Positions 3,367 to 24,122 of a stretch of 35,566 nucleotides of DNA are shown here, piece by piece. Both the position numbers and the translations under genes were made by a program. The notes beneath the pieces are model-generated. The model made no database searches and was not told the DNA's origin. It was given only the letters and a program-made list of their open reading frames with translations. Origin of the DNA: Clostridiales bacterium. GTDB lineage: Bacteria; Bacillota; Clostridia; Oscillospirales; Acutalibacteraceae. The stretch covers positions 1 to 35,566 of the forward strand of contig JAAYUL010000095.1 in the NCBI GenBank assembly GCA_012517675.1, written 5' to 3'. Position 1 is the stretch's first letter, and every line of letters starts with the position of its first letter.

Positions 3367-4311
3367 ATGACAACCGCACTGAAACTGGAACATATCAGTA
3401 AAACCATCGGAAAGAAGCAAATTCTTCACGATATTTCCTTTGAGACCTACGCCGGAGAAGTATTCGGCTTTTTAGGCCCGAACGGAGCCGGTAAGACCAC
3501 CACGATCAAAATCATTGTGGGGCTTCTGTGTCTGGACGAAGGCGCGATCACGGTATGCGGAACGGCGCTCAAAAACCATTTTGAAAAAGCGATGCAGAAC
3601 ATCGGCGGGATTGTGGAAAACCCGGAAATGTATAAATATCTGACCGGAATGCAGAACCTTCGCCAGTACGCGAGGATGCGCGGCAATGTTTCGCAGAAGC
3701 GGATTGACGAGGTTGTGGAAATGGTCGGTTTAAGCAACCGCATTCACGAAAAGGTCGGGCATTATTCGCTCGGAATGCGCCAGCGGCTGGGAGTCGCGCA
3801 GTCCATTCTTCATCACCCGAAGGTGCTGATTCTGGACGAACCCACCAACGGCCTTGACCCCGCCGGGATCAAGGAGCTGCGCGATATTCTGAAAAATCTG
3901 GCCCATAAAGAAGGCGTCGGCGTCCTGGTTTCCTCCCACCTGATGTCCGAAATGGAAATGATGTGCGACCGCGTCGGCATTATTGCGGAAGGAAAACTGA
4001 TCGGCGTGCAGACGGTGGAAGAACTGATTTCCACCTCCTCCGGCGGAAAAACCGGCTTTGTATTCACCGTAAGCGACGTGCCGCGCGCGCTGGAGCTGAT
4101 TGCCGGCCTGAATCAGGAAGCGACCCGGCTGGACGGCAGGCGCTTTCAGGTCGCGCTGCCGAGCGGTGAAACCGACGAACCGGTGAGCGCAATCTGCGCG
4201 AAGCTGATCGGCGCGGGGATCGGGCTTTACGGGGCCGCGCCCATGGAAAACAAGAAGCTGGAGGATGTGTTCATCGCTCTGACGGAGACGGGAGGCAAGC
4301 AAATTGGGTAA
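3367..4311 (+). CDS. ABC transporter ATP-binding protein (BcrA/CcmA-like)
   Basis: Walker A GPNGAGKTTT, signature YSLGMRQRLGVAQ, Walker B VLILDEPTNGLDP. Confidence 0.95.
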   Translation: MTTALKLEHISKTIGKKQILHDISFETYAGEVFGFLGPNGAGKTTTIKIIVGLLCLDEGAITVCGTALKNHFEKAMQNIGGIVENPEMYKYLTGMQNLRQYARMRGNVSQKRIDEVVEMVGLSNRIHEKVGHYSLGMRQRLGVAQSILHHPKVLILDEPTNGLDPAGIKELRDILKNLAHKEGVGVLVSSHLMSEMEMMCDRVGIIAEGKLIGVQTVEELISTSSGGKTGFVFTVSDVPRALELIAGLNQEATRLDGRRFQVALPSGETDEPVSAICAKLIGAGIGLYGAAPMENKKLEDVFIALTETGGKQIG

Positions 4312-5722
4312 GTTTTTTAAACTGGTACAAAACGAATATATTAAAATTTTAAATCGAATCAGCACCTGGATCATTCTCGGCCTTGTCGTGCTGGCCGCTC
4401 TCGGCCTTTGCCTGGTTTCTGTTTTGGTGAAGAACGAAATGAACCGAAACAACGACACATATTCTCAGAGCACCTATACGGACGGAATGTACGACAGCGA
4501 AATCGCGTACCAGAAGGATTCCAAGCCGGAGGGCTATGAGCAAATGATCGAAGCGCTTGAGTTTCTGCGGGACAACAAAATCCCCTATGCGGACTGGAGG
4601 TACGCGGCCGCGAATGACATGGCGCAGGTCAAAACACAGCTCGCGTCGGCTTCCGCCTCCGGTCTGGACGACGCAACGGTAAAAGCGCTGACCAAAACGG
4701 CGCAGGATTATAAAAACGCAATCCTCGCCAAGGACTGGAAAGCCTATTATCAGATAAAAATTGATGTGATTCAGGAGGACGCGTCTCTTTCCAAAGAAGA
4801 AAAAGAAATGCAGGAGTGGCAGTACCAATACCGACTTGGGCATGACCTGAAACCCGGCTCCGACTGGAAATCCAACCTGATTACGGAAACCGCGACGCTG
4901 AAAGCACAGGTTGCCTCCATGCGGAAGGAGCAGGAAAGCGGTACCGCGCAGGATATGGAAAAGCTGAATCAAAACGTCGACAAGATTCAGGCCAATTTGT
5001 ACCGGATAGAACACAATATCCGCCTCGACATCGCCTCCGCCGGGCTGACGCACCCTCAGGGCACGCTGGGATTCTGGGATGTTTTCTCCACCTCTTCCAA
5101 AATGATCTCCGTCATCAGTCTGTTGATTATTGTCATTGCCGGCAGCTGCGTCGCCAGTGAATTTTCCTCCGGCACCATTAAATTTCTGCTGATCAACCCG
5201 GTCAAACGCGGCAAGATTCTGTTTTCCAAATACGTAATGGTCGTTTCGTTCGCCTATCTGATGCTGCTTTTCTTCTTTATTCTGAACGCTCTGTTCTGCA
5301 TGATGTTTTACGGCACCGGCGACCTCGGGATTCCATACCTGTCCGTCGCGGGCGGTACGGTCCACAGCACGCCCGGATTTGCGTACATTGCGGGGAAGTA
5401 TCTGCTGGCCAGCGTGGATATTCTGGTCATGGCAACGCTCGCATTCGCCATCTCTTCGCTGATTCGCAGCTCCGCGCTGGCAATCGGCGTGGGCGCGTTT
5501 GCCATGCTGGGCGGCAACACGCTGATTTTGATCCTGAAGCAGGCGCTCAATCTGGACTGGGCGCGCTACCTGATTTTCGCCAACACAAATCTTTCCTCCA
5601 TTATGGACGGCAGCTCCCTGTTCGCGCACCAATCGGTGCAGTTTGCATTGATTGTGGTCGCCGTTCACATGTTCGTTTTCCTTCTGACCGCATGGGACGG
5701 TTTTGTCCGGCGGGAGGTCTGA
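4304..5722 (+). CDS. ABC-2 type transporter permease
   Basis: N-term TM, large extracytoplasmic helical region, C-term multi-TM block with SCVASEFSSGTIKFLLINPVKRGKILFSKY; overlaps ATPase gene. Confidence 0.9.
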   Translation: MGKFFKLVQNEYIKILNRISTWIILGLVVLAALGLCLVSVLVKNEMNRNNDTYSQSTYTDGMYDSEIAYQKDSKPEGYEQMIEALEFLRDNKIPYADWRYAAANDMAQVKTQLASASASGLDDATVKALTKTAQDYKNAILAKDWKAYYQIKIDVIQEDASLSKEEKEMQEWQYQYRLGHDLKPGSDWKSNLITETATLKAQVASMRKEQESGTAQDMEKLNQNVDKIQANLYRIEHNIRLDIASAGLTHPQGTLGFWDVFSTSSKMISVISLLIIVIAGSCVASEFSSGTIKFLLINPVKRGKILFSKYVMVVSFAYLMLLFFFILNALFCMMFYGTGDLGIPYLSVAGGTVHSTPGFAYIAGKYLLASVDILVMATLAFAISSLIRSSALAIGVGAFAMLGGNTLILILKQALNLDWARYLIFANTNLSSIMDGSSLFAHQSVQFALIVVAVHMFVFLLTAWDGFVRREV

Positions 5723-5782: not shown

Positions 5783-5827
5783 AAGGGCCTGTTTGTCGAT
5801 CCGTGTTGGATCGACAAACAGGCCCTT
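5783..5827. terminator. Perfect 20-bp hairpin, intrinsic terminator
   Basis: AAGGGCCTGTTTGTCGATCC-GTGTT-GGATCGACAAACAGGCCCTT followed by CTTTT. Confidence 0.88.
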
Positions 5828-5946: not shown

Positions 5947-5975
5947 TTGACAAATATTTACAATAAACATATAAT
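5947..5975 (+). promoter_or_regulatory. Consensus sigma-A promoter of the secreted-protein/ABC cassette
   Basis: TTGACA-17 nt-TATAAT, exact consensus. Confidence 0.85.
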
Positions 5976-6018
5976 ATTATTATAAGGCATTAAAAAATTC
6001 CTTTTTTTTTGCTATTTG

Positions 6019-6040
6019 CTATAAATAGTATGCGTGTTAG
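6019..6040 (+). repeat. Left arm of 22-bp inverted repeat flanking secreted-protein gene
   Basis: CTATAAATAGTATGCGTGTTAG; matches reverse complement of 6527-6548 at 20/22. Confidence 0.85.
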
Positions 6041-6059
6041 CAAAAAGGAGGTCAAAGAT

Positions 6060-6494
6060 ATGGCGAAAAGAGTATTCGCTTTCGTTTTCGCGGTAGCTCT
6101 ATTAACTGCAAATATTCTTCCAGCATTTGCAAAAACAGTTTATCAACAAAGAAATTTATACCGATCATGGTCGGATGATTATCAGAGAGTCCATATGTAT
6201 TATGACATCGGATCTACATGGCCTTATGATGATGTAAATGCCGAAACACATGTCACCGTATATGGTAATGGTGGCGGTGAATGGGGAGCCGCATATGTCA
6301 GAGTTACTTGCTCCGATGGAACATCACGCTCTGATTGGGAAACAAGCGTTTGCCAATATAATATTATGGCGACAAATACTGTTACGGTTCCTGGTCACGA
6401 TTATGCTTCTCAGGTGAATTATTATGGAAATGTACAAAAACCTATGGGATCTATACAAAACGTTTGGGATATTTATGTAACTTCTAGTGTTTAA
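6060..6494 (+). CDS. Small secreted protein of unknown family (candidate bacteriocin or extracellular factor)
   Basis: Start at 6060 behind AAAAAGGAGG; signal peptide MAKRVFAFVFAVALLTANILPAFA-K; mature part rich in Tyr/Trp/Gly with two Cys. Confidence 0.8.
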   Translation: MAKRVFAFVFAVALLTANILPAFAKTVYQQRNLYRSWSDDYQRVHMYYDIGSTWPYDDVNAETHVTVYGNGGGEWGAAYVRVTCSDGTSRSDWETSVCQYNIMATNTVTVPGHDYASQVNYYGNVQKPMGSIQNVWDIYVTSSV

Positions 6495-6526
6495 TTTCAT
6501 TACTTATTATTAAATAAAATGTAAAA

Positions 6527-6548
6527 CTAACACGCATATTATTTATTG
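6527..6548 (-). repeat. Right arm of 22-bp inverted repeat flanking secreted-protein gene
   Basis: CTAACACGCATATTATTTATTG; reverse complement CAATAAATAATATGCGTGTTAG. Confidence 0.85.
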
Positions 6549-6567
6549 TCTCGAAAGGAACGAAATC

Positions 6568-7689
6568 ATGAAACAATGGAGCCTTGCTTTCGATAATATT
6601 AAAAATTTGTTCAGGAAAAACAAATTAATATTTATGTTGTTTTTTATCGGTATGACCGTATGCATTATTTGCTTCATTTATTTTTACGGCAATACGATGT
6701 CCTATAAGGTCAATGAAGCAAAAAACTTAGACTTGCTGCGAACTTACCGTATCACATTCTCTCCGGCAGAACAAACGGATCATCATATGCCGGCTTTTTT
6801 GGACGGCGAGCCTGTGGAGGATATCATCCTGCAAAGCGAAATTCCGTTTCAAAAAATTCAATATCAGGAAATGAATTCCATCTTTAAAGAAATGTACCAG
6901 AATGGTGCCGTTCCATTTTGTGCCTCAGTGAAAAACCGCACGACTCTGTATGCGGAGCAGGGAAGGGTAACCTTTCACCCCGATGAATTGGAAAACGCCT
7001 CACCCGTATTGATCGTCCCTTATTTATTTCTCAGCAGGCACAGCATCTCAAATCAAGATCACCCGTTACTGATTGACGGAACCCGTTTCCGGATGATTGG
7101 GGCATGCACGCTGAACACTTTTTATATTCCTGTCAATACCTTTTTCAAAATGGGTCTTTCCTCAACCGGAATGAAGGTTGTATTCAAAAACATTTTAAGC
7201 GTTCAGCAGGAACAAGCCTTTTACCGTAAGATCAACGCGCGGTTTCCCTCCGCTAAAATCACCGGACCGGAACCGTTTAAGGAATTTCAGAAAGAGAACG
7301 CTCCCACCGAACTTTTTATGGTCGGCATCGTATATGTAATGGCGTTAATCTCCTTTATGTTCCTTATGAAATATATGATTGACGAAAACCGCAGGGAACT
7401 GGTCATTTACTCCATTGCAGGCGCGTCGCAAAGACAAATATCAAGGCAGCTGATTCTCCAGATTACCCTCTTATCTGTTCTCGCAAGTATCGCTGCAATT
7501 GCGCTTTATGTTTGTTTTTACAACCTGTTATTTTCAAAAATAAACATTACCGAAAACATCACCTATAATTGGCGGGATTATGGAATCATTTTAATTTTCT
7601 CCGTCCTGCTTGCCGATCTCACCGCCTACCCGTTCCTCCTGAGCTGCCGGGCAAAATCGATCGTCCAGTTAAAAAACAAGTGTGAATAA
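6568..7689 (+). CDS. FtsX/MacB-like ABC half-permease
   Basis: N-term TM, about 200-aa extracytoplasmic domain, three C-term TMs (VGIVYVMALISFMFLMKYM; RQISRQLILQITLLSVLASIAAIALYV). Confidence 0.75.
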   Translation: MKQWSLAFDNIKNLFRKNKLIFMLFFIGMTVCIICFIYFYGNTMSYKVNEAKNLDLLRTYRITFSPAEQTDHHMPAFLDGEPVEDIILQSEIPFQKIQYQEMNSIFKEMYQNGAVPFCASVKNRTTLYAEQGRVTFHPDELENASPVLIVPYLFLSRHSISNQDHPLLIDGTRFRMIGACTLNTFYIPVNTFFKMGLSSTGMKVVFKNILSVQQEQAFYRKINARFPSAKITGPEPFKEFQKENAPTELFMVGIVYVMALISFMFLMKYMIDENRRELVIYSIAGASQRQISRQLILQITLLSVLASIAAIALYVCFYNLLFSKINITENITYNWRDYGIILIFSVLLADLTAYPFLLSCRAKSIVQLKNKCE

Positions 7690-7701
7690 AAGAGGATAAA
7701 A

Positions 7702-8931
7702 ATGAAGCATCTTAAATTTATTTTCAGTTTATACAGCAAAAACTGGCTCTCTGCAATCCTTTTGATTTTTGTCACCTCTGTTTCCCTGTTTACGCTGACG
7801 AACGCAATCGGCAAATACCAGTTTTATCATTATTCTCTGGATTTGTTTTCGTCAACAAAATTAAACGACCATGATGTGTATTTCATGCCGTTTGTATCGG
7901 AAGATCAAAGGAAAGACCCCGAAAGTAACTATTTGAGCATGGAGCAGGCCACGTCAAATGCGGTTCAGCAGATTAAAAACACAGCGGGAGTAGAAGCAGT
8001 CATTCAAAGCCCCTTCCTTATTTCGGGAGAATATAAGGGCAATTCCCTATTAATGGCTATTTACGACCGGGAATTGAACGAAAAATTTTCGCTGCCGCTG
8101 GAAACCGGAACCTGGTTTCGCAATACAGCCAAAACAAAAAACGCAGAAGCAATCGCGGGCGGTTACTCCTTTCAGAACGTACAAGTCGGTTCTGCCATTC
8201 ATGTGGAATATAAAAAAGGGAACGGAATAACAAAAGAAATTGATCTGAAAATCGTGGGCAAACTGAAGGATCCGTCCGCTTTCCCAAATTTTTCTTTGAG
8301 CGGTACAACGATTTTTGCTGACGATATCTGGAAATGGCAGGATGTTCTGATCCTCAATCAGAAAAATCTGCCGGATGATGTCGGAAAGGACGCCCAAGTA
8401 TCCGGAAGTAATTTTTTTATTTCCATCCGCAGCCAAGCAAATTATGACGCTGCGGTTCGGAGCATTGAACAATTCGGAACGGTAAAACCCTATCGCAAAA
8501 TTCTGAGCGATTCCAGTATCAACGCAGAAAACAAAATAAGGCAAAATCTTCCGATTCCGCTTTTTTTCCTTTTCATTTCGAGCATGACGCAGCTAAGCGT
8601 TTCCGTCCTTTTTGTCAACAAAAAGATCCCGGAATTCGGGATCTATTATTTATACGGCTGCACCAAATTCCGATATTTCTGCTCTTTAATGATTTGCATT
8701 ACGGCGCTCGCACTGGTTTCCGTTCTGATCAATTTTGTTATGGTGGTCGAATGTCCGGCGCTGCTGCATTATGGAATTTTAAATCTGGGTCATGTGGTTT
8801 TCGATTGCAGACAGATTTTTTCTTTTGTTCTGCCTTATGAAATCATCAGCCTGCTCTGTTCCATCCTTTTCTGCTTCAGTATATTCCGAAAAAAAACTCC
8901 CATTGAACTGTACAGGAGGCTCGAATCATGA
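7702..8931 (+). CDS. FtsX/MacB-like ABC half-permease
   Basis: Same 1+3 TM layout; 4-nt overlap with ATPase start (8928). Confidence 0.75.
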   Translation: MKHLKFIFSLYSKNWLSAILLIFVTSVSLFTLTNAIGKYQFYHYSLDLFSSTKLNDHDVYFMPFVSEDQRKDPESNYLSMEQATSNAVQQIKNTAGVEAVIQSPFLISGEYKGNSLLMAIYDRELNEKFSLPLETGTWFRNTAKTKNAEAIAGGYSFQNVQVGSAIHVEYKKGNGITKEIDLKIVGKLKDPSAFPNFSLSGTTIFADDIWKWQDVLILNQKNLPDDVGKDAQVSGSNFFISIRSQANYDAAVRSIEQFGTVKPYRKILSDSSINAENKIRQNLPIPLFFLFISSMTQLSVSVLFVNKKIPEFGIYYLYGCTKFRYFCSLMICITALALVSVLINFVMVVECPALLHYGILNLGHVVFDCRQIFSFVLPYEIISLLCSILFCFSIFRKKTPIELYRRLES

Positions 8932-9590
8932 TCACATTGGAACATATCTACAAAATCTATTATTCGCACGGGGTGGAGTTCCAGGCGTTGAAGGACGTCT
9001 CCCTGACCATTTCCGACGGGGATTTTATTGCGATTCAGGGAAAATCCGGGGCGGGAAAATCGACTTTGTTACATATCCTTGGAGGTATCGACGATTATGA
9101 TACGGGTACGTACCGGTTTAACGACACGAATGTCGCGGATTTCACCAACCATCAGCTGGCAAAATTGCGAAACAGCGAAATTGGTTTTGTTCTTCAGGAT
9201 TTTTCCCTGATCAATCACAAGTCCGTCTTGTTCAACGCCATGCTTCCACTCTATTTTAACAAAACTCCCGCAAAAGACATGAAACCAATGGCGCTGAACG
9301 CGCTCCGATTGGCGAGGATTGAAGATCAGGCAAAAAAACCGGCCAACCAGCTTTCCGGCGGCCAGCGGCAAAGGGTTGCAATTGCCCGCGCAATTATCAA
9401 TAATCCCAGTGTGATTTTGGCGGACGAGCCAACCGGTTCTCTGGATACGGAAACCTCGGCCCAAATTATGGACCTGCTGATGTCCCTAAACAAACAGGGA
9501 ATCACTTTAGTTGTCGTCACGCATGATAACACCGTCGCCGGTTATGCTCATAGAATCATCACGCTGCGGGACGGGGAAATCCTATCATAA
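8928..9590 (+). CDS. ABC transporter ATP-binding protein, LolD/MacB type
   Basis: [46 protein letters not shown]. Confidence 0.96.
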
Positions 9591-9694
9591 AACCGCAAAT
9601 AGCAGCTACAAAAAAATTTTAATAAAAATATGAAAGCTCTGTCTGGAAAGCACGAAGATTACCCGACATGTAGCCCTGTTAGGAAGGTGAAAAG

Positions 9695-10081
9695 ATGAAA
9701 TGGAAAGTTTTATTTCTGCTGGCGATCCCATTGATGCTGGTTTCCTGCGCATCCAATCCTGTCTCTCGTAATGTTGAGGTTTTCTCAGGCGACCGCAAGA
9801 GTTCTTTGTGTAATACGGCGGAAACGGATAAAATCGTACGTTTTTTAGATATTTTAGGTCACTACAGCGTTTCCGATGATCCGCTTCCTTCAAAAACTCC
9901 GGACTATATTGTCAAAATACAGCCCGTGGACCGCGCGGGCAGAAGTATGGAATATAACATCTGGATCAAAGACGACAAAATCATTCTCCAGCCGCCGGAG
10001 ATGGAACAAGGCCCCGCCGCCAAACCGGGGGTGTCGGAATACCCGGCGAAGGACTTCTTGCAGCTTCTGAAAAAAGGGTAA
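9695..10081 (+). CDS. Small lipoprotein of unknown function
   Basis: MKWKVLFLLAIPLMLVSC lipobox; RBS AGGAAGGTG; last gene before terminator at 10091. Confidence 0.75.
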   Translation: MKWKVLFLLAIPLMLVSCASNPVSRNVEVFSGDRKSSLCNTAETDKIVRFLDILGHYSVSDDPLPSKTPDYIVKIQPVDRAGRSMEYNIWIKDDKIILQPPEMEQGPAAKPGVSEYPAKDFLQLLKKG

Positions 10082-10090
10082 ATCAGATGG

Positions 10091-10133
10091 AAAAGATTCC
10101 GCCCGTGTTGTGAAAACGGGGCGGAATCTTTTT
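10091..10133 (+). terminator. Intrinsic terminator
   Basis: AAAAGATTCCGCCC...GGGGCGGAATCTTTTT. Confidence 0.88.
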
Positions 10134-23831: not shown

Positions 23832-24122
23832 AAAAAGCCCCTGCCCCTGAAAAACAGGGACAAGAGCATTTGTGACTCCTGCGGTACCACCCAAATTGGC
23901 GAAATTTCGCCCGCTTGTTCCATACACAAAACATGTATGCTTCCTTGGTAACGGGTGAAGCTCCCGTCAAAAGCTACTCTGCCGTCGGCATTTCGCTCCG
24001 CCCTCATAAGTCCATTCAGCCTGCCGGATTCCGCCGCAATTCCACCGCCTGCGGCTCTCTTCGAAAACCCTTCCGCCTGCCTACTACTCTTAATCATCGG
24101 TTTCAGGTGCCTATCAACTTTT
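23832..24122 (-). ncRNA. T-box leader with UGG (Trp) specifier
   Basis: Minus strand GGGTGGTACCGC (23881-23892), terminator stem 23837-23867 with T-run, Stem I with GAA-UGG-AC specifier at 24012-24014. Confidence 0.93.

Follow-up and report, generated by a model that had tools for sequence, protein, structure and literature searches.

The 35,566-nt stretch of DNA analysed here (contig JAAYUL010000095.1 of GenBank assembly GCA_012517675.1, from a Clostridiales bacterium of the family Acutalibacteraceae; hereafter the window) contains an operon of five intact open reading frames. All of them lie on the forward strand and together they span 6060-10081, in the order secreted protein, half-permease 1, half-permease 2, ATPase, and lipoprotein (Table 1). 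The same parts and gene order had been named in an initial annotation made from the letters alone, and each feature was located where that annotation had placed it. We describe the operon as a candidate bacteriocin locus, in which the half-permeases and the ATPase would form the cognate ATP-binding cassette (ABC) transporter.

The product of the first gene (the 6060 product) has hydrophobic signal residues 5-23 and a mature part of 120 residues. It is acidic and Tyr/Trp-rich, with 18 aromatic residues and two cysteines, Cys84 and Cys98.

Each half-permease has an external domain of ~200-260 residues after its first transmembrane helix (TM1). Both had been annotated as FtsX-like. This holds directly for permease 1, which matches PF02687, while permease 2 lacks a direct match and is recognised as a distant homologue of permease 1 by profile comparison only (98% probability). 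The ATPase is best matched by the models TIGR03608 (213.4 bits), LolD (209 bits), FtsE (207 bits), and darobactin exporter DarD (205 bits), with MacB also at the top and all scores below the cut-offs of the models. These top models agree with the earlier label of a MacB-type ATPase, and place the protein, as far as profile scores can tell, in the MacB/LolD/FtsE branch but outside its established subfamilies. By its FtsX domain, four-helix pattern, and ATPase branch, the triad is predicted to be a type VII (MacB/LolCDE/FtsEX-like) ABC transporter. The lipoprotein gene starts 104 bp after the ATPase gene. Its product had been counted as part of the system, which its distribution does not support, as neither the genomes of the genus nor any of the loci retrieved contained a relative. 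Considered as an immunity gene, it was dropped from the core because it is not recurrent.

Table 1. Positions of the operon genes and associated features in the window
Feature	Position	Strand	Evidence and remarks
Upstream intrinsic terminator	5783-5827	+	20-bp perfect stem, -38.7 kcal/mol, z -9.9; part of the preceding ABC-2 transporter operon
Sigma-70-type promoter	5947-5975	+	Exact consensus TTGACA-17-TATAAT, 12/12 positions
Inverted repeat, upstream arm	6021-6040	+	Ends 20 nt before ATG; 19/20 complementary to 6527-6546; 0/200 shuffles; duplex z -5.9
Secreted beta-sandwich protein, candidate bacteriocin structural gene, 144 aa	6060 (ATG)-6494 (stop)	+	Signal peptide; family alignments A7/A8; AlphaFold2 model
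Inverted repeat, downstream arm	6527-6546	+	Between secreted-protein gene and permease 1
FtsX-like half-permease 1, 373 aa, 4 predicted transmembrane helices	6568-7689	+	PF02687, E 1.9e-13; alignments A1/A6
Half-permease 2, 409 aa, 4 predicted transmembrane helices	7702-8931	+	No Pfam match; profile A5 versus permease-1 profile A6, 98%
MacB/LolD-type ABC ATPase, 220 aa	8928-9590	+	PF00005, E 6e-31; Walker A and LSGGQ
Lipoprotein, 128 aa, probably accessory or unrelated	9695-10081	+	Lipobox LVSC
Downstream intrinsic terminator	10090-10133	+	Stem, -27.5 kcal/mol, z -6.3

Family, fold and neighbourhood of the secreted protein

As a sole query, the 6060 protein gave no match in Pfam (E ≤ 1), NCBIfam, the Protein Data Bank (PDB), or the phage, plasmid, viral and genome contig sets. 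An order-wide search returned matches at E 0.01-0.6 only, which were discarded as noise. Relatives were reached via permease 1, with which whole genomes were searched before the DNA upstream of each hit was read. In locus after locus, a protein of 130-160 residues, rich in Tyr, Trp, and Ser and equipped with a signal peptide, is encoded directly 5' of the permease pair. Hence the secreted protein, initially called an orphan, is not one. The same triad of two permeases and an ATPase is preceded by about 25 relatives or look-alikes, which come from Acutalibacteraceae and other Clostridia. In an all-against-all comparison of 24 proteins, the 6060 product matches that of locus L119 at E 8e-12 and those of L133, L112, L111, and L117 at ~5e-5, values that refer to this small set and are optimistic. 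Leave-one-out with the first ten secreted proteins gave only a weak signal for the window (6.8 bits, surpassed by 4 of 300 shuffles), and the relationship became clear only after closer members were added.

Many members share the core motif Y[YF]D[YI]G[ST]xxPYDD[VA]xA and, further along, G-x-D-Y-A-x-x-V. Membership was judged from the motif YDxGxxxPYDD and a location upstream of the permease pair, both of which were found. The groups L046/L048/L049, L115/L116/L118, and L050 are more distant and lack the PYDD motif, although their layout is retained. Homology is unproven above all for L057, L059, and L063, which were kept for their similar layout, and also for L127, L137, L051, and L121, whose layout is similar. 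The protein is poorly conserved (mean identity 21% between loci), and the secreted-protein alignment A2, like the permease alignment A1, was too diverse for a contig scan. None of 25 members scored above the cut-off of a named family in Pfam and NCBIfam. The DUF2712 family (PF10916) was considered as a parent and rejected, being hit by one A7 member only, at a weak E of 0.004, with a different transporter at its locus. On this evidence the 6060 product appears to define a previously unnamed secreted-protein family, on which an open-library search, itself limited, found no paper.

The fold was modelled using AlphaFold2. The full-length protein with eight sequences reached a predicted local distance difference test (pLDDT) of 65, and the mature part with 19 sequences reached 83.9, with a predicted template modelling score of 0.78 and all strands arranged as a beta-sandwich. 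Such a rise in pLDDT from 65 to 84 with a deeper family alignment is as expected for true homologues. Searched against the PDB using Foldseek, the model retrieved only generic Ig-like sandwiches with template modelling scores of 0.4-0.5, none at E ≤ 0.001, among them ApaG, CsgC/H, carbohydrate-binding domains, and side domains of glycosidases. The profile and structure checks proposed in the initial annotation for this gene thus yielded no named family and a confident all-beta fold.

We then inspected the linkage of the secreted protein to the transporter. Among loci with a permease 1 score of at least 360 bits, 13 of 14 have a secreted protein upstream, compared with 2 of 19 generic FtsX loci. 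Twelve of the 13 and both generic cases were counted by an automatic rule, and L048, with its truncated start prediction, was added; the profile had been built from most of these loci. The linkage was also approached from the secreted protein. Scanning the genome collection for the motif found four loci, each followed directly by permease 1, permease 2, and ATPase genes; three were re-finds and one, L148, was new. A profile scan of 190 genomes of the family added one new genome, G491, where the gene (L175) is followed by both half-permeases and the contig ends soon after. L148 and L175 are held-out cases found by the secreted protein alone. Both fit, the ATPase gene also following in L148. The recurrence holds across genera and orders and in both search directions, which supports the annotated grouping of the secreted protein with the permease and ATPase genes as one module. 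That proposal was to fall if homologues of the permeases never occurred with a secreted-protein gene, and the neighbourhood survey showed that they do.

The distribution of the module is uneven. In genome G602, a triad without a secreted gene in its upstream gap occupies the same chromosomal site as L148, beside glyA; the two triads are 74% identical in nucleotide sequence and the adjoining glyA regions 89%. A triad standing alone is as would be expected for an immunity transporter. L115 has tandem secreted genes. The cassette is sporadic, with one carrier among the 11 genomes of the genus; most genomes compared are drafts. In G004, nothing of it was found upstream of the orthologous DNA polymerase IV gene, G004 being not syntenic at the left cassette boundary. 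Some loci are duplicates of one place (L146 = L113, L147 = L112, L149 = L133, and L176 = L114); L146 belongs to Pseudoruminococcus massiliensis, family Acutalibacteraceae. The half-permease/ATPase locus L054 (1898-3994) has no secreted protein in front; instead, two MerR-like proteins, each with a membrane/extracytoplasmic part, precede it.

The secreted-protein gene is also set off by nucleic acid structure. The 20-bp inverted repeat encloses its ribosome-binding site and the gene exactly, and further short pairing in the window extends to the ribosome-binding site of permease 1. Ten other loci (L119, L111, L138, L046, L049, L115, L116, L118, L050, and L051) have a strong local hairpin in the gap between the secreted gene and permease 1 (0-1 of 200 shuffles), which the window lacks, and all ten are without the long-range repeat. 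The long-range geometry recurs in L175 (14/14), L133 (15/15), and L063 (~16 bp), with unrelated sequences. In a duplex test, no shuffle was as good for the window, L175, and L063, and 20 of 300 were as good for L133; in a repeat test, no shuffle was as good for L133. Local hairpin and long-range repeat never occur in one locus, but so few loci cannot prove that the two exclude each other. Most simply, the structural gene would be followed by an RNA stem that gives it an expression level different from that of the immunity genes. RNA stems of this type are familiar from other bacteriocin operons. Alternatively, the structural gene of this presumptive bacteriocin family of gut Clostridia, with its heterodimeric type VII ABC immunity, may in some strains be an invertible DNA segment. 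One repeat falls exactly in the interval from promoter to ribosome-binding site and the other exactly in that from the gene's stop codon to permease 1, so that flipping the segment would switch the bacteriocin off and leave immunity on. We regard this as unlikely; the repeat sequences are unrelated between loci, which argues against one common recombinase. A protein reading like a large serine recombinase is encoded at L175:4147-5727, ~1.1 kb upstream of the secreted gene, in the locus with the perfect 14-bp inverted repeat.

Comparison with lactococcin 972 and other systems

The closest precedent is lactococcin 972 (Lcn972), a secreted beta-sandwich whose gene is accompanied by a further two that encode an ABC transporter presumed to confer immunity (PMC11796350, PMC4055356). 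The operon resembles those of Lcn972 and streptococcin B in the order of secreted protein, membrane protein(s), and MacB-like ATPase, and in the presumed ABC immunity. Its ATPase is nearest to TIGR03608, the model of the Lcn972 transporter ATPase, and its secreted protein likewise combines a signal peptide with a confidently predicted beta-sandwich. The likeness does not extend to family membership. None of 25 members of the secreted family matched PF09683 or TIGR01653 at E ≤ 0.1, in keeping with the initial view that the protein does not look like Lcn972 and may form a new family, and the Lcn972 structure is absent from the 50 best PDB matches of the 6060 model, so the shared fold class is an analogy only. 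Where Lcn972 has one ~680-residue protein with seven transmembrane helices, the present operon has two half-permeases with four each. These had been likened to the DUF1430-type membrane protein of such loci, a parallel that fails at the profile level: DUF1430 was hit at E 0.34 and TIGR01654 at 13 bits against a cut-off of 189, and hhalign of both permease profiles with a real Lcn972 seven-helix partner from the same bacterial family gave a probability below 1%. This lack of alignment indicates a different transporter design. The ATPase, at 213.4 bits, falls below the TIGR03608 cut-off of 254.85, which is exceeded (267.5 bits) by a true Lcn972 locus in genome G142. A genuine Lcn972 locus of the same bacterial family, L151:4152-7201, encodes an Lcn972 protein, a TIGR01654 seven-helix protein, and a TIGR03608 ATPase. 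Judged from its genes, L151 places both designs side by side in one bacterial family with parallel gene order. Hence the operon would be Lcn972-like in logic, and by its structural protein, permeases, and ATPase it is classed outside the Lcn972 family. What appears to be new is an undescribed secreted-protein family with a permease design that differs from that of Lcn972.

The transporter shares with LolCDE, MacB, and FtsEX the arrangement of TM1, large external domain, and TM2-4, as well as the ATPase type, and with LolC/LolE the use of two different permeases. In contrast to these systems, the operon has no MacA-type adaptor or outer-membrane partner and has a dedicated secreted protein linked to it. 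YknXYZ and BceAB of Bacillus are MacB-family transporters that protect against extracellular toxic peptides (PMC5985334). Neither the adaptor of YknXYZ nor a BceB-like protein with ten transmembrane helices and a two-component system (PMC5985334) is seen in the operon. In the DUF2712 locus L168 of genome G1194, ABC transporter genes likewise follow one for a small secreted protein; unlike the present operon, this locus has several membrane proteins of ABC-2 size, and its ATPase scores only 73 bits with the profile of this operon's ATPase. At L168:6237-11091, the genes after that of the DUF2712 protein encode three membrane proteins of permease size and an ABC ATPase.

Interpretation and surroundings of the operon

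We favour, with a probability of about 0.6, a bacteriocin-type operon composed of a candidate secreted bacteriocin and a cognate type VII ABC transporter that protects the producer. From the computed gene set, signal peptide, co-occurrence, fold class, orphan triad, and RNA stems, we infer a course of events in which killing, target, immunity role, and transporter stoichiometry are proposed. The 6060 product would be exported by the Sec pathway, lose its signal peptide, and fold outside the cell into the 120-residue beta-sandwich, which may act at the cell surface to inhibit susceptible and probably related bacteria. The half-permeases would pair as a heterodimeric MacB/LolCDE-like transporter powered by the ATPase. 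MacB-family transporters perform mechanical work outside the membrane without carrying the substrate across their own membrane (PMC5985334). Given this mechanics and the signal peptide, the triad more likely handles the secreted protein outside the cell than exports it. By mechanical action on the external side of the membrane, it would pull the 6060 product off its membrane or lipid-linked target and so protect the producer. The RNA stem between secreted gene and permeases, local in relatives and long-range here, would lift expression of the secreted gene above that of the immunity genes. A toxin/immunity logic is suggested by the lone triad of G602, the sporadic cassette, the tandem secreted genes, and the parallel Lcn972 locus L151.

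Several points weigh against this interpretation. The same gene neighbourhood would be expected if the secreted protein were a sensor ligand, a surface protein, or a client of the transporter. Neither a sequence match nor a specific structural match links the 6060 product to known antimicrobial proteins, and no regulator, modification, or pheromone gene was found within the operon. A secreted protein is missing upstream of the more distant triads L047, L130-L132, and L134, which means that other roles are open to the transporter. Finally, the immunity role of the Lcn972 ABC genes is itself not experimentally verified (PMC11796350).

Of the other readings, a possible though doubtful one holds that the secreted protein is an envelope component or client, a beta-sandwich that the type VII transporter activates, positions, or releases at the cell's own surface with no killing. 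FtsEX-type systems do regulate extracytoplasmic wall enzymes (PMC10694151, PMC6705773, PMC5985334), and the generic Ig-like fold matches, including ApaG, carbohydrate-binding, and glycosidase side domains, as well as the acidic, Tyr/Trp-rich composition, would suit such a protein. The patchy, cassette-like distribution and low conservation of the secreted protein speak against it, as does a triad kept without the secreted protein in G602, and the Pfam search revealed no known wall-binding domain in the 6060 product. That the secreted protein serves as a ligand or signal, with the ABC transporter as sensor or uptake device in the manner of BceAB for bacitracin, seems improbable. MacB-family transporters do take part in antibiotic sensing (PMC5985334), but no two-component system was found among the window genes tested beside the operon, and the ten helices of BceB contrast with the four-helix half-permeases here.

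The NCBIfam name of TIGR03608, a 'putative bacteriocin export' ATPase, might suggest that the transporter is a dedicated secretion system for the 6060 product. The normal Sec-type signal peptide and the mechanics of MacB-type transporters, which move no substrate across their own membrane (PMC5985334), make dedicated export quite improbable. A chance neighbourhood, in which a generic FtsX transporter merely happens to adjoin an unrelated secreted protein, could draw on the triads that lack a secreted protein; the co-occurrence, found from either side and across genera and orders, already contradicts it, and we consider it extremely improbable.

If the bacteriocin interpretation is right, Acutalibacteraceae and other Clostridia harbour a diverse, so far unnamed family of protein bacteriocins that has an ABC immunity type to itself and can be recognised from a short motif and the neighbouring genes. 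The operon would also make testable whether the ABC genes of Lcn972-like operons give immunity, a point unverified in the literature (PMC11796350). L148, with the secreted gene, and G602, with the triad alone at the same site, would offer a natural comparison of producer and immune strain.

The operon forms a distinct block in the window. Neither terminator was equalled in stability by any of 200 shuffles, and these shuffles, the folding z-scores, and the 12/12 promoter match bear out its description as a self-contained unit between two hairpins. The block had also been called more AT-rich than its neighbours, which is confirmed by the guanine-plus-cytosine (GC) content per kb, most strongly in its first part (37-45% at the block start against 52.6% for the window). 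GC content rises along the block: it is lowest in the secreted-protein gene (0.26 at third codon positions), intermediate in the permeases, and ~48% in the ATPase and lipoprotein genes. Upstream lies an ABC-2 transporter operon (3367-5722) whose ATPase is nearest to lantibiotic-protection ATPases, and downstream a DNA polymerase IV gene. Elsewhere in the window, a T-box leader (RF00230) was detected at 23853-24106 on the reverse strand, with a score barely above the gathering threshold, and the gene at 1054-2433 encodes an aromatic-acid exporter/FUSC membrane domain fused to a Cof-type HAD phosphatase (PF13515/PF06081 and PF08282).

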